Assembly: GCA_030613505.1 (NCBI GenBank)
Contig: JAUWLW010000015.1
Coordinates: forward strand, 1-57,878
Source of the DNA: Candidatus Zixiibacteriota bacterium
Lineage (GTDB): Bacteria; RBG-13-66-14; B26-G2; WVWN01
DNA length: 57,878 nt
Direction: 5' to 3'
Of the stretch, positions 32,117 to 40,184 are shown one piece after another. The stretch's first letter is position 1; each line of letters opens with the position of its first letter. The translations under genes were made by a program, and so were the position numbers. The notes below the pieces were generated by a model. It saw only the letters and a program-made list of their open reading frames with translations, was not told where the DNA came from and searched no databases.

Positions 32117-32145
32117 TTGATTTTTTGGGGTTATGGGTTTATATT
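32117..32145 (+). promoter_or_regulatory. Promoter of the propeller-like protein gene
   Basis: TTGATT (32117-32122), 17 bases, TATATT (32140-32145). It lies 36 bases before GTG 32182, which has a GGGGGA ribosome site. Confidence 0.65.
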
Positions 32146-32181
32146 AGTGTGAATAAGCTACTAACGGAAAGGGGGACTACT

Positions 32182-33009
32182 GTGACATTTAGAGGGATTA
32201 AAGCAGGGGTATTTATTTCGCTCATAGCGGCGGGGCCCGCGTTAGCAAAGATGGGGGACCTGGTCGCATCGTTCCCCGCCCCCGGTACAAACCAACACTA
32301 CGGCCTGGCGGCGGATCGCAATTACCTGTATACCCATCACAGCAGCAGCGTGGGCAGTTGGCCCATTTTTATTATTAGGCGGACAAGCGGGTCTTTCGTC
32401 GGTTCGTACCGCAGCCCTTTTTACGGCGTTACGCCGGGGAACTATAATTGTTTCCGCGGCATGAGTTACCAAGGGGGCGGGTACATTTGGGCGACCAACT
32501 TCGCGTACGACATCGTGGTCAAGTTCCGCGCGTCCGACGGGAGTTTTATAAGTTCGTGGGGCACGGGCTTCGGCAAGAAAAGAACCTACGGCATCTGCGC
32601 CCGAAATTACAAATCAGGAACCGGGACGCTGCGCGGGTTCAATATCTCCGAGTATCACGCGCCGCGCCGTATCTGGAACTTTAGCACTTCCGGCAGCCTC
32701 GTATCCTCTTTTCAGGGCTGCGCCGCGGCTGACTTAGCCTGGGATGTCTGGGACCAGTTAGTATGGGCGGCCGACGTATCTGACGGCTATGTGTACGGTT
32801 ACTCATCCACCGGCCGGCTCTTGTCAAGCTGGGCCTGGCGGGTACGGCCGACTATTAATAACGCCTTCGGCGTCGCGCATTACGGAAGTTACCTTTACGT
32901 CCTAACGACGTCGGGCGCGCCGGACGAATATATCTGGGTTTTCCATTGTTTCATTCCTGGGGCCGTAGAACCGGCTACGCTCGGGCGCGTAAAGGCGCTC
33001 TACCGTTGA
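32182..33009 (+). CDS. Secreted beta-propeller-like protein
   Basis: A 275-residue secreted protein. The GTG start follows a purine-rich ribosome site; a signal peptide (FRGIKAGVFISLIAAGPALA) is clear. The mature part is a series of four-stranded repeats with recurring pieces such as YGLAADRNYLYTHH, SSGSLVSSFQG-like and YVYGYSSTGRLLSSWAW, the rhythm of NHL or YVTN-type propellers. The C-terminus ends in a short EPATLGRVKALYR segment that may be a sorting or anchor element rather than a blade. No catalytic residues are visible. It is transcribed alone with a hairpin after it. Confidence 0.7.
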   Translation: MTFRGIKAGVFISLIAAGPALAKMGDLVASFPAPGTNQHYGLAADRNYLYTHHSSSVGSWPIFIIRRTSGSFVGSYRSPFYGVTPGNYNCFRGMSYQGGGYIWATNFAYDIVVKFRASDGSFISSWGTGFGKKRTYGICARNYKSGTGTLRGFNISEYHAPRRIWNFSTSGSLVSSFQGCAAADLAWDVWDQLVWAADVSDGYVYGYSSTGRLLSSWAWRVRPTINNAFGVAHYGSYLYVLTTSGAPDEYIWVFHCFIPGAVEPATLGRVKALYR

Positions 33010-33199: not shown

Positions 33200-35257
33200 G
33201 TGCGAGCGGAACTGATGAACAGGTCTCTCTTCCCGGTAACGTCCGTTAAGGCCGCGGCGCAGGGCGCTTTCCGTGCGTTGCGCGCGGCATTAATCCGGCG
33301 GCCTGCGGCGTTCGCGGCGGCGGCCGTCGTTGCGGCGGCCGCGGTCGTCCGCCTCGTCCACGTCAACTACGGCCTTCCGCACCTGTATTTTTGGGACGAG
33401 GAAATGGTCATCAACGCGGCCCGGGAGATGATTATAGCCGGGCGGCTCTGGCCCGAATCGTTCTATCGTTACCCTTCGCTTTTAATCGACTTGCAAGTCC
33501 TCGTATCGGTGCCCGCGTATTTTAACGCGTTAAAATCGTACTCGGCCTTCGTAGATTTCGGCGATATCCCGATACACTATTTCGTTTTAAACGGGCGGCT
33601 GGTTACGGTCGCCTTCGGCGTCGCCGGCGTCATCTTGACCTACTTATTCGCCTCCCGTATTTGGCGAAAGCCGTGGTGGGGAGTAGCGGGCGCGGCCCTG
33701 CTGGCGATCGCCGGGTACAACGTTATGAAGTCAAGGATAATCGCGGTCGATGCGCCGATGGCTACGCTGGCCTTGGCTGCTTGTTATTTTCTGTTTCGGT
33801 TTCGAGCCAAGGGAAGCTTAAAGCACCTTTTGTGGAGCGGGGCCTTCTTGGGGATGGCCATAGGGGCGAAGTACAACGCGGCATATTTCGTTCCCGCGGT
33901 GGTTCTCGCGCTTGCCTGTTGGCGGAGGCCGGCTCGCGAATTCGGCCTGTGGGGTTTGATGGTCGCGGGCGTCTTCTTGCTCACGACGCCGGGGGCGTTG
34001 TTCCGGTTGAACGATCTCGTAACTTCCCTCGGCGGAAACTATTACCATTACAAAGTAGAGGGCCACGAATTATTCGTTTCCGCTACCCCCTTACTTTCCG
34101 CGGGTCGTTTTCTCTTATCACGCGAATTTACGTATCTACCGACGGTATTCGCCGCGCTCGGCCTCGGCGTCGTCGTATGGCGATGGCGCCTCGACGGCCT
34201 CCTCCTCGTCGCTTTTCTGGCTTCCTTCGAGTTTGCGATCGCGGGTATGGCGATATGGACGCCGGAACTGGTAGTCAACGTACTTCCTTTCGTCGCGTTG
34301 TTCGCCGCGGCCGGGTTTGGGGCTTTTACCGAGTTCGTCGGGGCGAAGATGCCGCAGAGAGGGCGGGCCGTCGCGGTGGCCGTCGTTATCGCGGGCTTTT
34401 TTGCGCTCCCCGTTATTGAATTAATATTGGACCTGCGGGCTTGGAGTCTGGAGGACCCTCGTACGAAGGGAGCGGCGTGGGTTAGTGAAAACGTTCCTTG
34501 GCCGAGCGCGATCGTGAAAGAGGTATGGAACGAAAGACCTTTGGAGGAGGGAGGAGAAACTGACGCCGCGCCTATCGACGAAGCGAAGTACGCCATTATT
34601 CGGACGGACCACATTATGAGAGAAACGCCGGGGCGTTGGGCTTCGGATGGTGCGATTTACTATGTGGGCCACTTCCCGCGGGGCCGTTTCGCGCTGCGCG
34701 GGAGGTTGGTGGAGGGGGCGTTGGCGGGACTCGGCGGCGACCGTGACGGTTTTTGGCGCCATTTCGAGCGCGTGGCGTATTTCCCAATCGACGACCGAAA
34801 TAGCACGGGGGAACCCGTTACGATATATAGGCTCGACGACCGTTTATTGGTTCAGGCTCATCCCTATCGTCGGGTAATACCATTAAGAAAATGCCTGGCC
34901 GTGCAAGAGGAGCCGCCCCACGAGTCTTTCGCCTTCGGAGGTGGGTGGTTCCGCCTATTTCACAACGGCCGCGTCGGTTGTTTTTTTACGGCGCCGGCGG
35001 AGCCTTACCGCCTGGGCTTTAAACTCATAGGGCAACCCGCCAACGGTATACCGCCGCGCGTACGGGTTAGGGTAGATAATGAAAAAGTCGCCGATTTCGC
35101 CGTCACGAAGGCCAAGGTCTATTGGACGAAACCTATCGCGCCGTACGCCCGCCGCTACCGCCACGTGATAGCGCAGTACTACAACGATACGGTGGATTTG
35201 GCGGGAGCGGATCGGAAAGTATCCCTGGGCGGTATCTACGTGGAGGCCGCAAAGTAA
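33200..35257 (+). CDS. Large GT-C-type membrane glycosyltransferase (PMT/ArnT-like)
   Basis: A 685-residue protein from GTG 33200 (ATG 33215 is an equally good start). Around ten membrane spans occupy residues 20-415. The first loop has HVNYGLPHLYFWDEEMVINA, whose Asp-Glu pair (D-E-E) is typical of GT39-like enzymes using lipid-linked sugars. The remaining 270 residues are soluble and probably periplasmic (FFTAPAEPYRLGFKLIGQPA, RVRVDNEKVADFAVTKAKVY), resembling a beta-sandwich domain that may bind acceptor. It differs from the pair at 24-27 kb in having this soluble tail. It is monocistronic between a promoter and a terminator. Confidence 0.8.
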   Translation: MRAELMNRSLFPVTSVKAAAQGAFRALRAALIRRPAAFAAAAVVAAAAVVRLVHVNYGLPHLYFWDEEMVINAAREMIIAGRLWPESFYRYPSLLIDLQVLVSVPAYFNALKSYSAFVDFGDIPIHYFVLNGRLVTVAFGVAGVILTYLFASRIWRKPWWGVAGAALLAIAGYNVMKSRIIAVDAPMATLALAACYFLFRFRAKGSLKHLLWSGAFLGMAIGAKYNAAYFVPAVVLALACWRRPAREFGLWGLMVAGVFLLTTPGALFRLNDLVTSLGGNYYHYKVEGHELFVSATPLLSAGRFLLSREFTYLPTVFAALGLGVVVWRWRLDGLLLVAFLASFEFAIAGMAIWTPELVVNVLPFVALFAAAGFGAFTEFVGAKMPQRGRAVAVAVVIAGFFALPVIELILDLRAWSLEDPRTKGAAWVSENVPWPSAIVKEVWNERPLEEGGETDAAPIDEAKYAIIRTDHIMRETPGRWASDGAIYYVGHFPRGRFALRGRLVEGALAGLGGDRDGFWRHFERVAYFPIDDRNSTGEPVTIYRLDDRLLVQAHPYRRVIPLRKCLAVQEEPPHESFAFGGGWFRLFHNGRVGCFFTAPAEPYRLGFKLIGQPANGIPPRVRVRVDNEKVADFAVTKAKVYWTKPIAPYARRYRHVIAQYYNDTVDLAGADRKVSLGGIYVEAAK

Positions 35258-35392: not shown

Positions 35393-36877
35393 TCAATCCG
35401 AAGGGTTCGCCCGCGTCGCCAATTCCTGGGGCGCCACGCGGGGCGAGTGCGCGCCGCAGCTTTCGGCGTCGGCCTCCTCCTCGCCCTCCGGCGTCGGGTA
35501 GAAGCCGAACTGGCGGAGCGCCGCCAGCTTCGGGAGGACGTTGTTCTCCAAGTCAATATGGAAGAAGCCGGGGAAGAGGTCCGGATTACCGACGATGAGG
35601 TCGAAGTACGGCGCGTAGCGCTCCGGCATCTCGACCTCGCCGCCGACGCAGACCTCGTGGCCGGTGAAGACGAATTCCGGCAGCAGATACGGGCAGAACT
35701 CGAGCGTGACCTTGGGCGCCCATTCCTCGTAGATAGGCGTCTGCGGTAGCAGGGACAACAGGCTTGGGAGGATTCGCGCGCCCATCATCCGGAACGAGAC
35801 CATCTGGAAGAGCGACTGGTTGAAATCCTCCTCGGTCTCGAATGGAAAGCCCCAGACGTAGAAGGCGTCGACGCGGGGGAAGAGCTCGATGGCTTGCGGG
35901 ATGAGGTCCAACGTCTCCTGGGCCGTAAAACCCTTCTTGATAATTTCGAGGACGCGGTCGGAGCCGGACTCGACGCCGAAGCGGAGCTCGAGGCAGCCGC
36001 TGTCGGCCATCGCCTTCATCATCTCGACGTCGCACAGGTTGACGCGGCCGAAAGCCTTCCAGTTGACGTCAAGGCCGGACTTCTCCAATTCCCGGCAGAA
36101 CGCCATAACCTGTTTCTTGCCCGAGACGAAGAATTCATCCTGGAAGAGGAAGAGGTCGACGCCGGCCTCGTCATGCAGGACTTTCATTTCGGCGACGATG
36201 TTTTCGGGGCTGCGGGAATAACTTTTATAATCCCACACCGGCGCGACGGAGCAGAACGTGCAGGGGTAGGGGCAACCGCGACTCGTCATAATGCCGTAGC
36301 CGGCGTATTTTGGGAGATCTATCTTGTCCCACGCGGGAAAGGGGATGGCGTTGAGGTCGGCGAGGCGTTCGCGGCCCGGGTTGCGGACGACGCGGCCGTC
36401 GTCGCGGTACGAGATACCGCCGACTTGCGATAAATCGCCGCCGCCGTTTAACGCGGCCATTAATTCCGGGCCGGCAACTTCGGCCTCGCCCCGGCACACG
36501 ACGTCGACCCACGGGAATTTTTCCAGGACCTTATCCTCTACCGAGTTGGCGCCGACGCCTCCCAGGACCAGTTTGCGGTAGGGGTAACGCTCGCGTAACG
36601 CCTTCATCGCGAGGAGGGAGAACGGCAAGAGGTTGGCCATACACGACAGGCCGATAACGGGCGCCGGGTCCTTCAGGAACTCGAGGAATACCTCCATATC
36701 GAACGGGTCGTCGGACGGGCAACATTGGTAGTCGCGGAAGTCGACGTCGACGCCGGCGTCTTCCAGCGCCCGGGTGAGGTACAGCGGCCCGAGCGGCACG
36801 TGCAGCTCGCGCTCGACCTCCTCGCCGTAACGGATGAAGAGCATATTGAGATTAACGAGCGTTATGTCGCCGGGCAT
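35393..36877 (-). CDS. B12-binding-type radical SAM enzyme at the end of the paralog operon
   Basis: A 494-residue protein. Residues 1 to about 150 resemble a cobalamin-binding Rossmann domain (PLGPLYLTRALEDAGVDVDF, LVLGGVGAN), without an obvious DxHxxG motif. A radical SAM core follows with the cluster cysteines C202, C206 and C209 in RGCPYPCTFCS; the SAM-binding pieces FGVESGSDRVLEIIKKGFT and AFYVWGFPFETEED are present. Such proteins (BchE/P-methylase/Elp3-like class B relatives) carry out methylations and other radical changes. I chose ATG 36877, 16 bases after the stop of the last paralog; longer starts overlap that gene. It closes a minus-strand operon of five small paralogs, so modification of those products is the likely role, but no substrate is shown. 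Confidence 0.88.
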   Translation of the reverse strand: MPGDITLVNLNMLFIRYGEEVERELHVPLGPLYLTRALEDAGVDVDFRDYQCCPSDDPFDMEVFLEFLKDPAPVIGLSCMANLLPFSLLAMKALRERYPYRKLVLGGVGANSVEDKVLEKFPWVDVVCRGEAEVAGPELMAALNGGGDLSQVGGISYRDDGRVVRNPGRERLADLNAIPFPAWDKIDLPKYAGYGIMTSRGCPYPCTFCSVAPVWDYKSYSRSPENIVAEMKVLHDEAGVDLFLFQDEFFVSGKKQVMAFCRELEKSGLDVNWKAFGRVNLCDVEMMKAMADSGCLELRFGVESGSDRVLEIIKKGFTAQETLDLIPQAIELFPRVDAFYVWGFPFETEEDFNQSLFQMVSFRMMGARILPSLLSLLPQTPIYEEWAPKVTLEFCPYLLPEFVFTGHEVCVGGEVEMPERYAPYFDLIVGNPDLFPGFFHIDLENNVLPKLAALRQFGFYPTPEGEEEADAESCGAHSPRVAPQELATRANPSD

Positions 36878-36893
36878 ATTACTCGCCTGCCTT

Positions 36894-37574
36894 TTAGGGG
36901 AGGTCGGGGCGGGTGCCGGTGATATACGTGGTACCCGGTTTATTTTCAACTAGTCGGAATTTTAAACTAGTTATCGTCTGTACGGTGATTTCGACGTTCT
37001 CTAAGATATGTTCGTCGTAACCCACACGGGAAGCTTTGATTAAATAAGTCCCCGGGGGAACGTTACTGATTACGAACGAACCGTCCTCTACTGTGGAAGC
37101 GTAAACGTTCGCTCCTTTTATGACCACGAGAACGCCTTTGATAGGTTGGTTATTGTCGTCAAACACGAACCCCGTAACTACGCCGGCGTCGTCCGGGACG
37201 TCGATTTCCTGGGGGTCGTCAATGTCGCGGTCGTAGGTTTTCGGGGGGATTTCCGGGTCGATGCCGACCGTGCGTATCTCCCATTCGTCTTGATCCGCCG
37301 CGTAAGCCCCTGTCCCCAGCGCCGCCAACATCACGGCCGCGGCGTAGCCGAGGAACGCGGGCCGTAAGGAGGGGTTGACCTTTGTGTTCGCGACGGTGGC
37401 TTCGAGTTGTTTTGCCGGGACGGCGCGGAGCATTGCCGCCTCCGCCGGCTCGAGCTTGAGGACGATGGTTTCCGCGGCCTCGGCGCGTTTTTCCAACAGC
37501 ATCTTCTTGAACGCCGGGTCGACCGCGGCCTTTTTAACGAGAACCTCGATTCCGCGTGAGATAGAATTCGCCAT
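36894..37574 (-). CDS. Paralog 1 of the five-member family: shared helical domain plus carboxypeptidase-regulatory-like domain
   Basis: At 226 residues the longest member, and the one next to the radical SAM gene. It lacks the first 34 or so residues of its neighbours and starts directly at the shared helical domain (SRGIEVLVKKAAVDPAFKKM). The fixed block RPAFLGYAA lies at residues 71-79 and the hydrophobic segment ends in AYA-AD, a signal-peptidase-I-like site, instead of the Cys seen in the others. The rest has VGIDPEIPP, then a carboxypeptidase-regulatory-like beta domain (about 131-205: GFVFDDNNQPIKGVLVVIKG, FVISNVPPGTYLIKASRVGY) and the C-terminal GTRPDLP. It is thus a fusion of a family leader to an adhesin-type module. 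Function unknown. Confidence 0.85.
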   Translation of the reverse strand: MANSISRGIEVLVKKAAVDPAFKKMLLEKRAEAAETIVLKLEPAEAAMLRAVPAKQLEATVANTKVNPSLRPAFLGYAAAVMLAALGTGAYAADQDEWEIRTVGIDPEIPPKTYDRDIDDPQEIDVPDDAGVVTGFVFDDNNQPIKGVLVVIKGANVYASTVEDGSFVISNVPPGTYLIKASRVGYDEHILENVEITVQTITSLKFRLVENKPGTTYITGTRPDLP

Positions 37575-37588
37575 AAACTCGCGCTCCT

Positions 37589-38110
37589 TTATGGTCGGCC
37601 GGGCCTAATCCCGCGCGTGACAGGCTCGTCTCCTATTTCCGGTTTCTTTGCCGCGTCCTGGGCACGGTCAGTTACGCCAGGCGGCGGGTCGGGCCTGATG
37701 CCTTCAACCGACGGTCCTGTTGGAGTATCGTCACAGCCGGATGTCGTTGCGGCGAGCGCCGCCAACATCACGGCCGCGGCGTAGCCGAGGAACGCGGGCC
37801 GGAGGCCCGGGCTGACCTTCGTCTTCGCGACGATGGCCTTAAGTTGTTTTACCGGGACGGCGTTGAGTATTGCCTCCTCCTCCGCCTCGAGTTTGAGGGA
37901 GATGGAATCGGCGGCCCCGGCCCGTTTTTCAAGGAGCAGCTTTTTAAACGCCGGGGCGACCGCGGCCTTCTTGACTAATACCTCGAGGCCGCGGGGGACG
38001 TCGCCGACGTTCGCGCCTCCGCCCGGCGGCCTACCGCCCACGATGGTCGTACGGACGGCCTCGGGTTCGCCGGGGCGAGCCATTTTTATCCGTTCCGAGT
38101 TTATACTCAT
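37589..38110 (-). CDS. Paralog 2 of the five-member family
   Basis: A 173-residue protein. Layout: a variable N-terminus, then EAVRTTIVGGRPPGGGANVG (17-36), PRG at 39-41, a helical domain of about 65 residues with LVKKAAVAPAFKKLLLEKRA, RPAFLGYAA at 104-112, a hydrophobic segment ending at Cys126 (TTSGC), then an acidic, Pro-rich tail with GIRPDPPP (137-144) and a C-terminal TRGIRPGRP (165-173). Tails of the family differ but the domain and spacing are kept. It sits 12 bases after paralog 3 and 14 before paralog 1. I do not recognise a named family. Confidence 0.85.
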   Translation of the reverse strand: MSINSERIKMARPGEPEAVRTTIVGGRPPGGGANVGDVPRGLEVLVKKAAVAPAFKKLLLEKRAGAADSISLKLEAEEEAILNAVPVKQLKAIVAKTKVSPGLRPAFLGYAAAVMLAALAATTSGCDDTPTGPSVEGIRPDPPPGVTDRAQDAAKKPEIGDEPVTRGIRPGRP

Positions 38111-38121
38111 CGTTTCCTCCG

Positions 38122-38649
38122 TTAAGGCCGACCGGGCCTAATCCCGCGGGTAACGGGTTCGTCCGCTTTTTCTCCCTGTTTTACAGCGTTCTCAGAATCG
38201 TCAACGACCCAGGGGGGTGTTTTCGGGGGAGGATCCGGCCGGGAACCTAGAGTAGCGTCGAAGGGGCCGTCGCAAGCGGATATCGTCGCCCCTAACGCCG
38301 CCAACATAACCCCGGCGGCGTAGCCGAGAAACGCGGGCCGGAGGGAGGGGTTGACCTTTGTGTTGGCCACTATGGCGTCGAGCTGCGTCTCCGGAACGGC
38401 CTCGAGCATCGCCGCTTCCGCCGGCTCGAGCTTGAGGGCGATGGCTTCCGCGGCCTCGGCGCGTTTTCCTAAGAGTAGCTTCTTGAACTTCGGGTCAACG
38501 GCGGCCTTCTTGATTAAGACTTCGACGCCGCGGGGGACGTCGCCGACGTTCGCGCCGCCGCCCGGCGGCCTGCCGCCCACGATGGTCGTGCGGACGGCCT
38601 CGGCTTCGCTGGGCCGCGCCATTTTCACTGTATCGTTGCGCTTAACCAT
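38122..38649 (-). CDS. Paralog 3 of the five-member family
   Basis: A 175-residue copy. It repeats the EAVRTTIVGGRPPGGGANVG block, PRG at 39-41, the helical domain (IKKAAVDPKFKKLLLGKRAE) and RPAFLGYAA at 104-112. The hydrophobic segment ends in ISAC with Cys126, which fits a lipobox (I-S-A-C). The tail has GSRPDPPP at 135-142 and ends TRGIRPGRP, identical in its last nine residues to paralog 2. The tail is acidic and Pro-rich between the two elements. Spacing to both neighbours is 11-12 bases, so one transcript is likely. Confidence 0.85.
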   Translation of the reverse strand: MVKRNDTVKMARPSEAEAVRTTIVGGRPPGGGANVGDVPRGVEVLIKKAAVDPKFKKLLLGKRAEAAEAIALKLEPAEAAMLEAVPETQLDAIVANTKVNPSLRPAFLGYAAGVMLAALGATISACDGPFDATLGSRPDPPPKTPPWVVDDSENAVKQGEKADEPVTRGIRPGRP

Positions 38650-38661
38650 AACGCTCCTTAT

Positions 38662-39261
38662 CTACGGTCGGTCGGGGCTAGTGGCCATTGTCCCGCCGCC
38701 GAGGCCGCTACCACCAGGCAAGCTGTTATCGTCGCGTTCTTGTTCCTCGGTTTTCGCCGCCTTCGCGGTTTCGGCATTTTCTCCTTCGGCCGGTGGTAAT
38801 TTTCCGCTGGCGTCCGCCGTCGCCGGGAAATCCGGTTGTATGCCGCGCGTTGCGCCGGGGTCATCCGGGCTCGTGCCCGCATCTCCGCATCCCGTCGTTG
38901 CGGCGAGCGCCGCCAACATCACGCCGGCGGCGTAGCCGAGGAACGCGGGTCTAACGCTCGCGTTGACCCTCGTGTTCGCGACGGTGGCTTCGAGTTGTTT
39001 TACCGGGACGGCGTTGAGCATCGCTGCCTCCGCCGGCTCGAGCTTGAGGGCGATGGCTTCCGCGGCCTCGGCGCGGTTTTCCAACAGCATCTTCTTGAAC
39101 GCCGGGTCGACGGCGGCCTTCTTGACCAAAACCTCGACGCCGCGGGGGATGTCGCCTACGTTCGCGCCGCCGCCCCGCGGCCTGCCGCCCACTATAGTCG
39201 TGCGGACGGCCTCGGCTTCGCCGGGGCGCGCCATTTTTATATGACTAGGGGTTTTGCTCAT
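38662..39261 (-). CDS. Paralog 4 of the five-member family
   Basis: A 199-residue copy with the same head (EAVRTTIVGGRPRGGGANVG), PRG at 39-41, helical domain (LVKKAAVDPAFKKMLLENRA) and RPAFLGYAA at 104-112. The Cys is at 125 (TTGC). The tail is longer: TRGIQPDFP at 138-146, a charged Glu/Lys stretch, a Gly-rich end and the final TSPDRP. It therefore carries a variant of each element rather than exact copies, which suggests selection for a loose motif, or ongoing divergence. Twelve bases separate it from each neighbour. Confidence 0.84.
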   Translation of the reverse strand: MSKTPSHIKMARPGEAEAVRTTIVGGRPRGGGANVGDIPRGVEVLVKKAAVDPAFKKMLLENRAEAAEAIALKLEPAEAAMLNAVPVKQLEATVANTRVNASVRPAFLGYAAGVMLAALAATTGCGDAGTSPDDPGATRGIQPDFPATADASGKLPPAEGENAETAKAAKTEEQERDDNSLPGGSGLGGGTMATSPDRP

Positions 39262-39273
39262 ATTAGCATTCTC

Positions 39274-39828
39274 CTAGGCTTGCGGATTGTCTTTTTTACT
39301 TAGAGAGCTTTTTTCGATGGTCCGTTTAACGCCTTTGGCCGAGGCGTCCTGGCTGGCCCCTCCGGCTACCGGCTCTGCCGTACCCGGCGGCGGTGCGGGG
39401 GGGCCGGGGCGCGTACCTACCGGGGTAGGGGGTTCGAAAGGGCCGCCGTCGCAAGCAGTGCTTACCGTGCTCAACGCCGCCAACATAGCCCCCGCGGCGT
39501 AGCCGAGGAACGCGGGCCGGAATTTCGGGCTTATGCGAGTGTGGGCGACTATGCCCTCGAGTTGGGGGAGGGGGACCGCGGCGAGCATTGCCTCCTCAGC
39601 GGCGGTAAGATTAAGGCCGATCGCCGTTGCGGCGTCGGCCCTTTTTTCGAAGAGGATTTTTTTGAAAGCGGCGTCCACCGCGGCCTTTTTTATGAGGACC
39701 TCCAGGCCGCGGGGAATATGGCGGTCGATTACTTCACCTTCCAGTAGCGTAGCCCCGACGTCGGCGACGCGGGTGATCGCGTCTTCCCCTTCGACGCGGT
39801 CGTTTCGCCGAATTTTCTTTTTTCCCAC
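39274..39828 (-). CDS. Paralog 5 of the five-member family (first gene of the operon)
   Basis: A 184-residue, most divergent copy, first after the promoter. The head differs (basic KKKIRRNDRVEG, then TRVADVGATLLEGEVIDRHI), but PRG falls again at 39-41 and the helical domain (IKKAAVDAAFKKILFEKRAD), RPAFLGYAA (104-112) and Cys126 (VSTAC) are in register with the others. The tail has GTRPGPPAPPP at 138-148 and ends in KKDNPQA, without the final G-x-R-P-x-x-P. It starts at GTG 39828 with AGGGA upstream. Divergence at the operon head suggests it may have a distinct role, for example in assembly or recognition. Confidence 0.82.
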   Translation of the reverse strand: MGKKKIRRNDRVEGEDAITRVADVGATLLEGEVIDRHIPRGLEVLIKKAAVDAAFKKILFEKRADAATAIGLNLTAAEEAMLAAVPLPQLEGIVAHTRISPKFRPAFLGYAAGAMLAALSTVSTACDGGPFEPPTPVGTRPGPPAPPPGTAEPVAGGASQDASAKGVKRTIEKSSLSKKDNPQA

Positions 39829-40184
39829 AACGGTTCCCTATTAAAAAGACTTGGCGAAGCCTCTTCCCGAATACCACATTTACATTATATACGTATTTTC
39901 CGGTACGTGCAAGTTACAAAAGTTTTCGCTGGCAGTTTCGGCTACGTTGGGCCGGCGCGGCTTTCGCCGTTGTTAGTGTCTCTCAATTAACTTGAGGTTT
40001 AGAACCTTATATTCAGGTAGTTACATTATTTGTTTAAAGTCAATTATAAATATATAAATTGTATTACTCGCGGCTTGTGTGGGGGTTGGCCAGGTTCATT
40101 AGGTCGTCAAGATGAGGTGAAAAGAACTTCTGGCGGACGAGGTGGCTGTCACCCCGCCGAATAATCTGTGGTTTCGGCGTGCCG
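39829..40184. other. 356-base gene-free stretch, AT-rich in part
   Basis: It contains the operon promoter near 39884-39912 and a 48-base leader for the paralog operon. The rest, notably 40010-40070, is AT-rich with short runs such as TATAAATATATAAATTG. I see no gene, RNA or strong hairpin. It also holds the 3' flank of corA (which ends at 40185), with no terminator I can defend. Confidence 0.55.
39884..39912 (-). promoter_or_regulatory. Promoter of the paralog/radical SAM operon
   Basis: On the minus strand, TTGCAC (39912-39907), a 17-base spacer and a perfect TATAAT (39889-39884) precede paralog 5. No other promoter-like pair of this quality is seen between the six genes, which are separated by only 11-16 bases, so one transcript is expected. 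Confidence 0.75.

Follow-up and report, generated by a model that had tools for sequence, protein, structure and literature searches.

What might five paralogous small proteins have in common with the radical S-adenosylmethionine (SAM) enzyme that closes their operon? The question is raised by a stretch of 57,878 nucleotides from Candidatus Zixiibacteriota bacterium (contig JAUWLW010000015.1), here called the window, which belongs to a genome of 2.86 Mb that is 93% complete (G000). Its list of open reading frames contains six minus-strand genes: five precursor-like paralogues, P1 to P5, followed by the gene of the radical SAM enzyme. An earlier note, made from the letters of the window alone, had read this layout as a pathway of the kind that makes ribosomally synthesized and post-translationally modified peptides (RiPPs). 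Half of this view stands, as co-occurrence and adjacency strongly support a match between leader-bearing precursors and a modifying radical SAM enzyme. The other half does not: in place of the supposed RiPP-type peptide cores there are tails, probably exported and often lipoprotein-like, with whole domains and a repeated G-I-R-P-D-x-P. We consider it probable that the operon encodes a leader-guided system of protein modification and export, with the enzyme acting on motif sites in the tails. It looks like the modification of surface proteins rather than a route to a small peptidic natural product.

The constancy of the gene pair comes first. A profile of the domain shared by the paralogues was run on species genomes and on whole genomes, leaving 31 carriers once duplicates were removed. 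The species genomes gave 12 loci, labelled Coatesbacteria, Planctomycetota (including Phycisphaerae and Pirellulales), Verrucomicrobiia, 'Nealsonbacteria', Desulfomonile and Chloroflexota; some labels of metagenome-assembled genomes among the carriers may reflect misbinning. The whole-genome search found precursors in 11 of 40 genomes of one phylum, while they are rare or absent in the sampled genomes of the Pirellulales-class, Verrucomicrobia, Chloroflexota and Desulfobacterota. The enzyme lies directly downstream of the precursors in 28 of the 31 genomes with strong precursor matches, counting two that are cut short, by the contig end in G148 and by a run of N in G002, and in carriers it scores 716-1005 bits with the family model. 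As for the remaining three, the precursor operon runs off the contig end in G001 and G153, and the enzyme is on another contig in G155, where the 1.9 kb upstream of its gene hold no precursor. The reverse search, over 298 genomes of one class, returned seven with the enzyme, six of which have an adjacent precursor; in the last, the contig stops some 100 bases away from the start of the enzyme gene. Sampled relatives that have no precursors did not yield the enzyme either. The earlier note had granted that precursor homologues regularly found without a radical SAM neighbour would speak against it. Where the data permit the comparison no such pattern appears, since adjacency prevails in both directions and the exceptions are mostly contig ends. 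Two genomes (G147 and G452) possess a second, unlinked precursor locus and yet a single enzyme each, as expected for action in trans.

Weak leader matches in the Chloroflexota and Verrucomicrobia samples (20-26 bits) and one of 54 bits in a genome without the enzyme (G157) were not counted as members of the family. Neither plasmids, searched with the enzyme at E up to 1e-50, nor viral contigs, searched with the leader, gave a match. In the enzyme tree the phyla outside one clade are not separated, and 16 rows are left unresolved; together with the patchy distribution, this suggests that the enzyme spread horizontally. Sporadic occurrence in phyla whose members are mainly uncultured suggests, in turn, a mobile and useful trait.

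What, then, is the shared domain? The earlier note had rightly recognized it in all five paralogues, where block identity is 67-87% between copies, and could name no known family for it. On this point it must be amended: the domain belongs to the nitrile-hydratase-leader (NHLP) clan, with Os1348 closest. The Os1348 family model of this clan (NF038399) matches the leader with E-values from 1e-9 to 7e-3 (best 1.3e-9). Its cut-off of 40 bits is missed, narrowly by the best members (38.0 and 37.9 bits) and more widely by the window copies (16-33 bits), so that the result indicates kinship within the clan and not membership of the Os1348 family. The NHLP model TIGR03793 is further away (13.1 bits for P2, against a cut-off of 50.9, with none of the other window copies among the matches listed), and Pfam gives weak matches to nitrile hydratase alpha and to Frankia_peptide. 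A profile search of solved structures points the same way, with nitrile hydratase alpha at 6e-5, Os1348 at 0.01 and, weakly, an NHLP leader at 0.14. The AlphaFold model of the leader is a helical bundle of moderate confidence (predicted local distance difference test, pLDDT, 71), of which the sole clear match is Os1348 (6lk7, Z 5.0, 63 of 66 residues); other leader folds may be compatible with the Foldseek and VIA lists. In the leader block of the P2-P5 pairs the rate of nonsynonymous substitution (dN) is well below the synonymous rate (dS). NHLP leaders are reported to recruit modifying enzymes through protein-protein contact (PMC12455567, PMC10858898), and a comparable role has been proposed for the leader of the pfl/pos clusters (PMC12636437). 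By homology with them, the leader studied here would recruit the radical SAM enzyme.

Directly behind the leader comes a hydrophobic segment of the form RxAFLGKAAAxMLAALG, then a cysteine or an AxA-type site. Its mean best 17-residue hydropathy is 1.84; over the initial 12 positions the share of cysteine is 5.2%, compared with about 0.3% further on, and this residue stands close to the segment end in about 31 of 55 precursors. In the window xxC closes the segment of four copies, AYA/AD that of P5. An alignment of 30 family members contains no conserved GG; it has MLAALGxxx, then either a lipobox or AxA. A hydrophobic segment with a lipobox cysteine, as in bacterial lipoproteins or DAG-RiPP-like substrates, is what these proteins display. 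Unlike an ordinary signal peptide, the segment does not sit at the protein N-terminus; it starts at residue 104 in P1-P4 and at residue 71 in P5. The alternation of lipobox and AxA among paralogues of a single operon is more easily explained by a signal peptide than by a mere membrane anchor, and we infer from these features that the segment acts as an internal signal peptide. A twin-arginine reading was discarded, RRx[FL] being present in only 9 of 55.

The tails behind this segment span 39 to 671 residues and are wholly different from one another: some carry a named domain, CarboxypepD_reg (P5), TonB_C (L006, L117), acyl-carrier-like (L131) or leucine-rich repeat (LRR, L120), and others match no named domain. 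Within the window they are 9-26% identical, except for P3 and P4 (52%). The sole element common to tails across phyla is [TS][RK]-G-[IAS]-R-P-D-x-P. When at least five of six positions must match, 49 of 55 tails contain it, with 111 copies in all; shuffles that preserve composition give 0.3. The glycine is invariant in all 111, a figure to be read with caution, since the threshold itself favours the consensus. A genome-wide pattern scan for GI/VRPDxP-type codons retrieved the first motif of P4; one other match in the window's genome was taken as chance.

The enzyme (35393-36877, minus strand; ATG at 36877; 494 residues) is, as the earlier note proposed, a radical SAM protein with an N-terminal B12-binding-type domain: PF04055 (67.5 bits) and PF02310 (46.7 bits) both exceed their gathering scores, and the cluster-binding motif CPYPCTFC (CxxxCxxC) is present. 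The family is very uniform, at 53-79% identity to the window copy. It reaches no curated equivalog; the best is ApyD (NF050148, 166 bits against a cut-off of 750), which C-methylates a peptide (PMC10635010). In predicted fold it comes closest to the B12 radical SAM methylases TokK, CysS, TsrM, OxsB and MgmA, and it may use cobalamin. Because of the ApyD match and of this fold, C-methylation is the best guess for the chemistry, other B12 radical SAM reactions being possible instead. The family alignment further reveals a conserved C-terminus, ESCGAHSPRxAPQELATR (alignment columns about 485-512; about 35393-35480 in the window), which sits behind a variable linker in most members and is modelled with low confidence; it might possibly contact a metal or the precursor.

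Put together, these elements allow us to propose a sequence of events. The folded, helical NHLP-clan leader would bind its cognate radical SAM enzyme in the cytoplasm, and the enzyme would modify G-[IAS]-R-P-D-x-P sites in the downstream tail, C-methylation of one motif residue being the likeliest chemistry. The internal signal-peptide-like segment would then take the tail across the membrane, where signal peptidase II (at the lipobox cysteine) or signal peptidase I (at AxA) would remove the leader, yielding a modified lipoprotein or a secreted protein. Surface display, adhesion or partner binding may be the role of such modified tails. In its boldest form, the proposal is that of a new pathway, where a folded, cleavable NHLP-clan leader placed before an internal signal peptide would bring entire surface proteins to a B12 radical SAM enzyme of their own, and each GIRPDxP would receive a novel modification of side chain or backbone before export; this version we put forward tentatively, as less likely than not.

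Several observations weigh against the preferred scheme. An all-against-all comparison of the flanks found no conserved third gene that could be an exporter, a protease or a partner; the large clusters that the flanks share are made up of frames that run antisense to the precursor and enzyme genes or overlap them, and what else recurs are common sensor kinases and cyclases. The extension that precedes the signal segment (70-100 residues) is unusually long, the AxA rule that we applied is loose, and the automatic lipobox and AxA tags are rough. Confidence in the AlphaFold models is moderate (pLDDT 71 and 69), and AprD4, which has the same domain arrangement as the enzyme, ranks 16th in the fold matches; such a fold is no proof of cobalamin binding. 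Finally, the motif is no more than a putative site of modification: five of the 55 tails do not contain even a loose version of it, and among these are the sole precursors detected in G077 and G243, two genomes in which the enzyme is kept.

These last two genomes would also fit a reading in which GIRPDxP is an independent extracytoplasmic motif, for assembly, sorting or partner binding, while the precursor-matched enzyme modifies another site, for example the N-terminal TTIVGGRPPG block or the segment at the leader end. In favour of the block, TIVGGRP is very uniform and found in 36 of 55 precursors. About a third nevertheless do without it, including P1, P5 and those of L007/G002, while the tail motif reaches 49 of 55, and a change located N-terminal to the leader would vanish if the leader were cleaved. 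We regard this alternative as unlikely, though it is the strongest of those considered. A classic RiPP pathway, in which the tails would be precursors of short bioactive peptides and GIRPDxP a core or a protease recognition sequence in multi-core tails, is more doubtful still. It would account for an NHLP-clan leader, for paralogous precursors with variable C-termini and for several tails that are short, rich in Pro and repeat the motif in tandem (L121/L016, L129); it is hard to reconcile with tails of up to 671 residues and folded domains such as CarboxypepD_reg, TonB_C, ACP or LRR, with the lack of a double-Gly site and of a conserved peptidase-transporter or immunity gene among the flanks, and with a hydrophobic segment and lipobox that suggest anchoring. 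As for an enzyme acting on a small metabolite or a lipid, merely by accident next to the precursors, many members of the superfamily do act on small molecules (BchE, HpnJ and TokK are among the matches), but precursors and enzyme occur together, side by side, almost without exception in several phyla, and no other gene is conserved with them, which makes us reject this as highly improbable.

We can now return to the operon, with modification of exported tails as the reading retained. All its features are on the minus strand. The six genes follow each other with gaps of 12, 12, 11, 14 and 16 bases, in agreement with the spacing of 11-16 bases reported in the earlier note. A candidate promoter, TTGCAC-17-TATAAT, was read from the sequence upstream of P1 (39884-39913, approximate to a few bases). 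It is weaker than the earlier note had it: its -10 box is perfect, while TTGCAC shares only three of six positions with TTGACA and a consensus scan rejects it. RPAFLGYAA is found at residues 104-112 in P1-P4, as announced, and at residues 71-79 in P5; the five Pro-rich tail elements that had been listed are all there. Three features had escaped notice: the cysteine directly behind the hydrophobic segment in most copies (four of five), an RTTIVGGRP block at the N-terminus of P2-P4, and the CarboxypepD_reg domain that makes up the tail of P5.

P1 (39274-39828; 184 residues, GTG start; 141 bits with the family hidden Markov model, as for the scores that follow) has its leader at about 39520-39711, a signal-peptide-like segment ending in Cys126, the lipobox cysteine, at 39451-39519, and GTRPGPP at 39397-39417. 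P2 (38662-39261; 199 residues; 166 bits) begins with the TTIVGGRP block (39172-39201), followed by the leader (about 38953-39144), the signal-like segment up to Cys125 (38887-38952) and two motifs, GTSPDDP (38857-38877) and GIQPDFP (38824-38844). The same order holds in P3 (38122-38649; 175 residues; 171 bits), with the block at 38560-38589, the leader at about 38341-38532, the segment up to Cys126 at 38272-38340, GSRPDPP at 38227-38247 and a C-terminal GIRPGRP at 38125-38145, and in P4 (37589-38110; 173 residues; 163 bits), with the block at 38021-38050, the leader at about 37802-37993, the segment up to Cys126 at 37733-37801, GIRPDPP at 37682-37702 and again a C-terminal GIRPGRP, at 37592-37612. 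P5 (36894-37574; 226 residues; 144 bits) has no N-terminal block; its leader (about 37365-37556) and its signal-like segment with the AYA/AD site (37299-37364) precede GIDPEIP (37245-37265), the CarboxypepD_reg domain (residues 133-208; PF13620, 5.8e-16) and a C-terminal GTRPDLP (36897-36917).

Some neighbours deserve mention. In several genomes of one phylum (f124; L109:3-2645, L112:9184-15559, L113, L114) a gene for a HAMP and adenylate/guanylate cyclase protein lies directly upstream of the precursor, and sensor kinases or GGDEF proteins occur near precursors at other loci. Further short genes adjoin the enzyme in L115:7205-8190 (-), L124:8771-10131 (-) and L116:8321-9256 (+); their products, with an NHLP-clan domain of divergent sequence and a hydrophobic segment, have a pilin-like tail without the usual GIRPDxP, the tail of L115 giving weak Pilin_GH/ComP matches. 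In the window, a membrane protein resembling PMT-type mannosyltransferases is encoded at 33200-35257 (+), convergent to the enzyme gene, and next to it stands a gene for a 294-residue protein without Pfam match (32125-33009).

In the open-access literature we found no description of this precursor-enzyme system, no work linking radical SAM, RiPP and Coatesbacteria and, for GIRPD, only an unrelated podoplanin paper. If the scheme is correct, the operon would stand for a kind of protein modification that has not been described: radical SAM chemistry directed by a leader would reach from small peptides up to complete surface proteins and lipoproteins, and unrelated proteins would have a short target motif in common. 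In the boldest form given above, one enzyme would serve unrelated tail domains, so that adding a leader and a motif could route any protein to it.

How does this compare with systems already known? Neighbours of NHLP-leader RiPP genes can include B12 radical SAM methylases, as in polytheonamide-type pathways. In these proteusins (TIGR03793; PMC2887384), as here, a variable region follows a long, folded leader akin to nitrile hydratase alpha, with genes beside those of modifying enzymes. By contrast, our system falls far under the TIGR03793 cut-off, a signal-like segment and a lipobox replace the double-Gly, the tails are whole exported proteins, and no peptidase or ABC transporter is conserved and linked in the flanks. 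Os1348 (NF038399; Pseudomonas Os17, PDB 6lk7), whose family the pfl/pos clusters (PMC12636437) seem to resemble, is the nearest leader by sequence and by predicted fold. It is an 85-residue protein encoded beside an acetyltransferase and a HEXXH protein, in a paper that mentions no radical SAM gene (PMC7726476); the precursors studied here stay just under the curated cut-off, and Os1348 lacks an export segment of their kind. On the enzyme side, ApyD (PMC10635010), MgmA (PMC11796369), TokK, CysS and TsrM share domain order, predicted fold and the best curated-model matches; their substrates are unrelated to our precursors, and ApyD is described as RRE-containing whereas a Pfam scan of our enzyme found no RRE-type domain. 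The RiPP-lipoprotein hybrids, or DAG-RiPPs, are the closest published idea: their substrates, some above 30 kDa, are modified, exported and endowed with a lipobox, and a recognition motif is common to otherwise different proteins (PMC12636315). There, MNIO enzymes recognize a C-terminal motif in proteins with a normal N-terminal signal peptide, while our precursors have their folded leader in front of an internal signal-like segment; lipidated RiPPs are expected to be leader-independent (PMC12636315), an expectation that the present system, if our reading is right, would contradict.

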